Assembly: GCA_002257045.1 (NCBI GenBank)
Contig: NCHD01000015.1
Coordinates: 1-51,547, forward strand
Direction: 5' to 3'
Origin: Hydrogenophilales bacterium 16-61-112
GTDB taxonomy: Bacteria > Pseudomonadota > Gammaproteobacteria > Burkholderiales > Thiobacillaceae
DNA length: 51,547 nucleotides
A program made the translations under genes and the position numbers. The notes below the pieces were generated by a model. That model saw only the letters and a program-made list of their open reading frames with translations. It was not told where the DNA came from and made no database searches. The first letter of the stretch is position 1. Each line of letters begins with the position of its first letter. Positions 23,288-51,501 of this stretch are shown piece by piece.

Positions 23288-23372
23288 GCCGTCGTGGTGG
23301 AATTGGTAGACACGCTATCTTGAGGGGGTAGTGACTTCGGTTGTGCGAGTTCGAGTCTCGCCGACGGCACCA
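23288..23372 (+). tRNA. tRNA-Leu (anticodon GAG)
   Basis: An 85-base cloverleaf. The acceptor stem GCCGTCG (23288-23294) pairs with CGACGGC (23362-23368), followed by discriminator A and an encoded CCA. The D-arm contains GGAATTGGTAGAC. The anticodon stem CTATC/GGTAG carries loop TTGAGGG, so the anticodon is GAG. There is a long variable arm and a TTCGAGT T-loop. It reads CUC/CUU leucine codons. The secG-tRNA-Leu-nuoA order is typical of Betaproteobacteria. Confidence 0.97.
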
Positions 23373-50357: not shown

Positions 50358-50440
50358 GGTGAATCGTCTGGCGTTTGTCGCTCGCTGGAAAGCGGGAAAA
50401 TATGCGTCACCTTCCATGGTGAATCTGGGGGCTGCATGTC

Positions 50441-50869
50441 GGCCTTATGTAAAGCTTTGCATAAGGCCGATTATGCAAAGTCTTCGATTATGTGAAGTGG
50501 CGAGGGAAGTATTCTCGGAACGCTTGCTGGGCGCGGCCTAGCGCTAACTGACGGCGAAGAATGCTTTGCATAATTTCGCCTGTGATCTGTACTGCGGCGT
50601 CACGCACAGCGATCGGTTATGAGCCGCATCACTCTGCAGCAGATCATGGTGTATCCCCGGCCTACCGGCCTGCCGGTGAAGTCCTGTCTTTTTGCTTTGA
50701 GAACACCAGCCAAGATCCATCGTTGATCGTCCACCTTGCTCGCAGGCATCCAACCTAATAGCGCGGTGATTATGCAAAGCTCACAATGGAATCCATCCTC
50801 TGCTCATCGACATTTCCCGTCCGTTGACACATCTCACTTTTCATAATTGAGGACTTTGCATAATCGGCC
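50441..50869. repeat. TTATGCAAAG repeat block with 18-bp inverted repeat, possible mobile element
   Basis: Five exact copies of the 10-mer TTATGCAAAG/CTTTGCATAA (50455, 50471, 50564, 50770, 50854) and three close variants (50445, 50488, 50837) lie in 429 bases. A perfect 18-bp inverted repeat, GGCCGATTATGCAAAGTC (50465-50482) and its complement (50852-50869), brackets about 370 bases. At the left edge two copies form a 28-bp near-perfect palindrome (50441-50468). The short open frames inside (50544-50777 minus, 50561-50758 plus) show no recognisable protein. It could be a non-autonomous element, a solo element end pair, or an iteron-like array. Confidence 0.6.
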
Positions 50870-51015
50870 TAAGCGGTCTTTTGCCTGGCACAGCAAATAC
50901 GTCCGCTATGAACTTCTGACCGGTCGACTGCGGATCAGACCTTCAACGTACAAGCTCCGGGGCGCGAAAACAGGCGTCGAAGCCGGCTGTTGAAGCGTCC
51001 CACTGGAGAGGAATG

Positions 51016-51501
51016 TTAGGGATGGGAAACATGATTGGATTTAGAAGATGGAGCCAAGCGCAACGCGCTCGCCCACATATTGCCAAGATGCCCTTGCCGA
51101 AGCTCTATCTCTAAGGTGGTTCCAATTTCTGATTGTCGGTAAACGGACTCAGGTACTTCTATTTCAAATCTACTGGTTTGGTTGGATCGTCGTATTGTCA
51201 GGAAGTAGTGGTTTCTGCCTCGGCCCTCGAACTTTCTTGAGTCTTCAACACTTACAAACTCACGGACTTGGGGGGATGCATCTAGATGTACGTTAATGAT
51301 TTTGGGGCCTTGAAACCAAATAGCAACTAGCAATCCAAACAACGGGATGGCGGCGATAATGGTTTTTGGGTTGGCATAGTGCATTGCCACGGGTAAGCCG
51401 ACAAGAACAAATGGGAGGGATATAAAAACAACTGTTGTTATATCAAGTTTGAACCGCCCCGGATTTTGTGGAGGCTCCACCTCTTGAGAAAATGGAGCCA
51501 T
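51016..51501 (-). CDS. Hypothetical membrane protein, N-terminus replaced by IS sequence
   Basis: A 161-residue protein with two predicted membrane helices, about residues 22-42 (TTVVFISLPFVLVGLPVAMH) and 47-65 (TIIAAIPLFGLLVAIW), and a soluble C-terminal part ending in SKSNHVSHP. The first 17 or so codons (51450-51501) lie inside the left end of an IS3-family element, so the present start is probably not native and the original N-terminus is lost or altered. No family recognised. Confidence 0.55.
   Translation of the reverse strand: MAPFSQEVEPPQNPGRFKLDITTVVFISLPFVLVGLPVAMHYANPKTIIAAIPLFGLLVAIWFQGPKIINVHLDASPQVREFVSVEDSRKFEGRGRNHYFLTIRRSNQTSRFEIEVPESVYRQSEIGTTLEIELRQGHLGNMWASALRLAPSSKSNHVSHP

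Follow-up and report, generated by a model that had tools for sequence, protein, structure and literature searches.

What is the compact block of 10-bp repeats that lies close to the right end of a contig of Hydrogenophilales bacterium 16-61-112? It spans positions 50439-50869, about 430 bp, of the window, i.e. the whole stretch of DNA analysed (51,547 nucleotides, contig NCHD01000015.1), and an initial annotation made from the letters alone hesitated between a miniature mobile element and a protein-binding control region. We propose, with a probability of roughly 85%, that this block is a RIT (recombinase in trio) element reduced to a non-autonomous, MITE-like form, which would have lost the three-recombinase interior and kept both recombinase-binding ends, and on which recombinases of a complete RIT would act in trans.

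The repeats themselves are real and not a chance accumulation. The 10-mer TTATGCAAAG is present in five exact copies, at 50455-50464 (-), 50471-50480 (+), 50564-50573 (-), 50770-50779 (+) and 50854-50863 (-), together with two copies carrying one mismatch, at 50445-50454 (+) and 50837-50846 (-), and one carrying two, TTATGTGAAG, at 50488-50497 (+), which locates all five exact and three near copies counted in the initial annotation. Allowing at most one mismatch, TTATGCAAAG matches the window 11 times against 2.7 expected, with at least 11 matches in 0/100 shuffles, and seven of the 11 matches fall within the block. That annotation had also considered an equal density of the 10-mer genome-wide; the repeat is not dispersed over the genome, and all three occurrences of the 12-mer GATTATGCAAAG in the 2.9-Mb assembly fall within the block.

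From left to right, the block consists of an outer hexamer, TCGGCC (50439-50444, +), a palindrome unit of 20 bp made of two recombinase-type arms head to head, TTATGTAAAGCTTTGCATAA (50445-50464, no strand), a GGCCGA hexamer between palindrome and body (50465-50470, +), a gene-less body of 393 bp (50471-50863, +) and a second outer TCGGCC (50864-50869, +). One end of the element thus abuts a separate palindrome whose two arms are of the same type as its own. The left palindrome, described earlier as 28 bp long, is present and measures 32 bp (50439-50470) with one mismatched pair; likewise, the perfect 18-bp inverted repeat exists, its extent having been set too short, as the terminal inverted repeats are 36-nt arms, 89% complementary, at 50464-50499 (+, repeats at 50471 and 50488) and 50835-50870 (-, repeats at 50854 and 50837). 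Each arm therefore carries two 10-mer repeats with a spacing of 17 bp, and two further copies are internal: the one at 50564 has a similar site in the related copies of the genomes G066 and G058/G063 described below, and the one at 50770 is also found there. No ORF of at least 80 aa lies inside the block, which bears out the absence of a gene, and Rfam matched nothing in the window except a tRNA at 23288. No second copy of the block was found in the organism's own assembly, which contains one more palindrome, solo, on contig 133.

The same ends bound recombinase genes elsewhere. Complete trios of adjacent, overlapping tyrosine-recombinase genes lie between them at six loci (L008, L013, L073, L081, L089 and L093), L073, in genome G061, belonging to the same genus as the window. 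The terminal motif is common to the window and the six trios, with up to 3 mismatches in L073, and the palindrome stands at one end in L008, L073 and L089 and at both ends in L013, L081 and L093. Among plasmid records, four match the block, all at its left end only; at L008, from Paraburkholderia sprentiae, the matched end bounds three tandem tyrosine recombinases, i.e. a RIT. Membership of the RIT elements was judged on three adjacent overlapping genes, terminal inverted repeats of ~28-34 bp, an overlapping palindrome and homology beyond the repeats. The window block displays the terminal inverted repeats, the overlapping palindrome and homology beyond the terminal repeats; the three recombinase genes are absent from it. 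A search of its own genome (94% complete) with two of the three RIT proteins returned only distant recombinases, of 31-37% identity, at three loci, one of them an integron integrase on contig 24 (490 bits). As the block has no recombinase genes and none of the RIT type was found in its genome with these two proteins, we file it as a RIT derivative and not as a RIT, and the window copy may be stranded.

Homology to RIT ends was assessed outside the terminal 36 bp. The right interior of the window block aligns to the ritX1-side RIT end better than any of 200 shuffles (0/200 as good), and the left interior gives a weak alignment to the ritX3-side end (4/200 as good). The G066 copy matches RIT ends on both sides with the same polarity (0/60 shuffles each), and a two-sided pattern is displayed by L047, L050 and L080 (0/60 shuffles on each matching side) and by L046 (1/60 and 0/60 as good). 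At L009 the pattern is restricted to the 5' end (0/60), the 3' end giving 12/60 and 35/60.

Gene-less copies occur in other betaproteobacteria, and gene-less bodies of 339-440 bp were identified at L009 (Azoarcus pAZKH), L046, L047, L050, L052, L053, L080 and L102. Matches to the block are present in 23 of the 117 genomes of the GTDB family, own genome counted; apart from the latter, three matches reach at least 300 bp, in G066 (80%, nearly the whole block, with 79-80% identity over the body) and in G058 and G063 (87% identity, left end missing). The left-truncated miniature lies in identical surroundings (500 bp compared) in these last two species genomes (L044 6902-7243, and L045). As to a phage origin, a phage collection gave no match, and two IMG/VR contigs match the end pattern. 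One Gallionellales genome carries two miniatures at different loci, L080 (1702-2108) and L102 (5102-5508), which are 99.2% identical over 370 bp and in which the palindrome adjoins opposite ends of the body, as if the body or the palindrome were able to switch sides. That two such similar copies lie at separate loci and differ in the side that bears the palindrome argues that miniature copies spread and that the palindrome is a separate unit. The block is thus MITE-like in the sense of being gene-less with repeated copies at different loci, its own assembly holding one copy only.

A different history could leave a similar trace, namely a complete RIT that inserted here and decayed in place without ever having been mobile as a miniature. 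Such a dead relic would fit both the absence of RIT recombinases from the own genome, as searched with two of the trio's proteins, and the left-truncated copy in G058/G063, but the same miniature interior is present at other loci (G066, G058/G063) and twice, nearly unchanged, in the Gallionellales genome, so that we regard decay in place as improbable. The idea already put forward in the initial annotation, a MITE-like element that relies on a tyrosine recombinase gene elsewhere for its movement, is supported by the six complete trios that share its ends, by the gene-less copies at different loci, two of them in one genome, and by a close relative without the element. A single copy conserved at one locus, the observation that would have refuted this idea, is not what the relatives present, as the block is not fixed at one locus among them.

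Elsewhere, the palindrome unit occurs solo or on either side of a body. Its pattern is present in 24 of 117 family genomes, own genome counted, and 68 distinct sites divide into 24 that are solo and 44 with a body on one side. Because it forms a near-perfect hairpin and is so often solo, the block could be taken for a hairpin terminator or a REP-like palindrome array that does not move. This is very unlikely, since the same arms bound recombinase trios, presence varies between near-identical relatives, and the palindrome arms track the repeats of the adjoining body (23 distinct combinations, 0/2,000 shuffles as close, kinship ignored).

Comparison with relatives places the boundary of the proposed RIT derivative at the hexamer. 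Over the left flank, genome G059 differs from the window by 8 mismatches in 2,000 bp and by none in the last 74 bp; it is without the element and departs from the window directly after TCGGCC (50439-50444), the last bases common to both. The empty site sought in a relative is therefore found in part: the element is missing and the divergence falls at TCGGCC, but the right side has been exchanged as well, since the G059 sequence past the hexamer equals the window right flank at 26/60 bases, so that this is not a clean empty site and both sides of the hexamer have changed. An iteron or DnaA-type protein-binding control region, brought to mind by clustered 10-mers one base off the DnaA-box core, gained no support and was dropped as scarcely credible, given that this close relative has the same adjoining gene without the block and that elsewhere the copies have unrelated surroundings or enclose recombinase genes.

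Divergence exactly at the 6-bp hexamer was observed at a second locus, L046, where a left flank common to relatives is followed by other DNA after TCGGCC in six of them (G084, G052, G061, G064, G055 and G060, the last seen in L208 at 642). The orientation of the outer hexamers differs with and without the palindrome: they are direct (TCGGCC twice) where a palindrome stands at one end, as in the window, L009 and L046, and inverted, GGCCGA and TCGGCC, in the palindrome-less body L052 (6394-6744). Because of this inversion in palindrome-less bodies, TCGGCC is not simply readable as a target duplication. Clean empty sites for L009 and L008 were sought in plasmids; queries aside, the matches listed (15 of 56 and 25 of 137, respectively) are flank or recombinase regions, and the L139 target module gave no match in plasmids.

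To the right of the body, the right target arm, TAAGCGGTCTTTTG, and a dispersed module extend over 50864-50938 (+), the module also being present in element-less genus genomes. It has 15 matches in genus genomes, 11/15 starting at TCGGCC and 14/15 within 3 bases of it. Further right, at 50955-51025, lies what we take to be attC-like sequence (GTTAGG, CCTAAC), with presumably similar sequences at 2170-2190 and 3010-3040 of L136, the G059 version of the locus. The contig end (51500-51547) presumably corresponds to the start of an IS3-family orfA. Several genus genomes also contain the last 30 bp of the window, in many cases close to where a contig stops.

Outside the hexamer, the flanks share the common preference nnASCnGMCrTT. 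A target model trained on 48 solo-palindrome flanks and tested on palindrome-plus-body and body-end flanks gave means of 5.3 (44 flanks) and 6.4 (17 flanks), against a mean of -8.4 for 1,944 other TCGGCC/GGCCGA contexts (95th percentile 2.4, 99th 7.9). As just 10/44 palindrome-plus-body flanks and 5/17 body-end flanks lie above the 99th percentile of the background, nnASCnGMCrTT is to be read as a preference. In the window, the left target arm, CATGCAGCCCCCAG read outward (50425-50438, -), fits it in part and scores 3.4, and the right arm scores 6.9. Taken alone, the strict two-armed pattern hardly exceeds chance in the family (12 sites in 10/117 genomes versus 9 in 8 for the reversed control), and TCGGCCNNAGCGGNC has 3 sites in the own genome versus 3 in the control. 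A scored scan of the fetched loci yielded 66/1,245 two-sided contexts versus 12.6 expected, in a sample that is biased because many of the scanned loci were chosen for having such sites.

From these comparisons of sequences, we infer how the element might move. The recombinases would come, in trans, from complete RITs at other places; on the element they would recognise arms of the TTATGCAAAG type, on the target the nnASCnGMCrTT arms, and the three of them would exchange strands across the 6-bp TCGGCC core. Under a mechanism of the SE/Tn554 type, a circular intermediate with 6 bp of the left flank, and no empty donor site, would be expected.

TCGGCC-type hexamers also bound slots with unrelated inserts. 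In G067 (L154 2612-2643, G067:C64:227611-227642) and G098 (L197), a solo palindrome sits between two genus-conserved stretches, whose best match is below 1e-100 in 52/56 genus genomes. The same slot holds inserts between TCGGCC and GGCCGA of about 2.1 kb in G094 and about 4.6 kb in G102. Both borders are present in G105, on two contigs, the right border in G066, and the right border with an altered left one in G078; 34-54 bp occupy the place in G070, G079 and G104, and the G103 insert has a left side without the TCGGCC bound. The G059 version of the window locus is itself slot-like, with two-sided sites at 2097 and 3771 of L136. Depending on the relative, this place (L154 and L179-L186) is thus occupied by the palindrome alone, is without an occupant, or contains 2-5 kb of inserted DNA in which defence-like genes lie between TCGGCC and GGCCGA.

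With PADLOC (E <=1e-30), 9/20 slot proteins match, a raw share without genome-wide baseline. The first set, of 10 selected proteins, gave 6/10 matches; it includes L180, whose left side is not TCGGCC-bounded, and leaves out an ORF of L183 that resembles a helicase and is cut by the contig end. The second set, 10 of 23 slot ORFs, gave 3/10, the other 7/10 having no match at 1e-10. One slot border each is visible at L212, L215 and L219. At the G067/G098-type slot the matches are PD-T7-4, CapP, NsnB, NsnC, QatA and a cytosine methylase, the CapP match adjoining an E1-like protein in the insert; other slots gave an RT-Toprim protein (L217, both borders seen), a GajB-like helicase and an LmuB-like protein. 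Slots further contain sulfate permeases, a stress protein and an ISL3 transposase, and the RIT proteins had no match in 56 slot and comparison loci. It is conceivable, though we hold it doubtful, that TCGGCC sites with inverted nnASCnGMCrTT arms represent a natural betaproteobacterial cassette exchange by RIT recombinases in trans, in which the slots would hold interchangeable small operons, for defence and other functions; the lone 20-bp palindrome would mark a slot that is empty or minimally filled, and the slot borders would be where miniature RITs lodge.

Integron gene cassettes are small gene units that can be swapped at a fixed position, attC, with the motif GTTRRRY. The slots resemble them in this respect and differ in their junction, which is TCGGCC with inverted arms. 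MITEs of insertion sequences, likewise, are short, lack genes and carry the terminal repeats of their autonomous relative; here, in contrast, the autonomous partner encodes tyrosine recombinases and not a DDE transposase, and an ordinary target duplication could not be demonstrated. Several tyrosine recombinases are also a feature of SEs (strand-biased circularizing elements), GInts and Tn554, which PMC10214605 describes as target-specific, with imperfect inverted repeats at their ends and a spacer or footprint of 6 bp. The putative 6-bp joint of RITs, deduced here from comparisons and not from recombination products, is reminiscent of the SE and Tn554 spacer, whereas the gene sets given there, intA, CDS2, intB and CDS4 for SEs and ginA-D for GInts, are different (PMC10214605).

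The closest likeness is to RITs, for which terminal inverted repeats overlapped by a palindrome have already been published (PMC3414803, PMC2864759) and whose ends bound, in our set, three overlapping tyrosine-recombinase genes. The window copy differs by being gene-less and about 430 bp long, versus about 3.2-3.5 kb for a RIT, and by a palindrome that is a separate unit with a hexamer core and target arms, features that do not appear in the RIT descriptions compared. In the literature searched, no description was found of miniature RITs, a separable palindrome, a hexamer core with target arms, or slots; priority is uncertain because the 2013 RIT survey (Ricker et al.) lies outside that search. 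According to PMC3414803, RIT mobility is still to be demonstrated and the joint action of three recombinases is hard to picture.

To the initial annotation, the present analysis adds the connection with RITs, the TCGGCC core and the target arms. RIT elements are widespread, and a gene-less element of 430 bp that has the sites, with a target preference and a 6-bp core, would offer a minimal substrate for RIT mobility and for the three-recombinase question. Should the slots of exchangeable, partly defence-like operons depend on this machinery too, bacteria would have a new route for swapping small gene sets.
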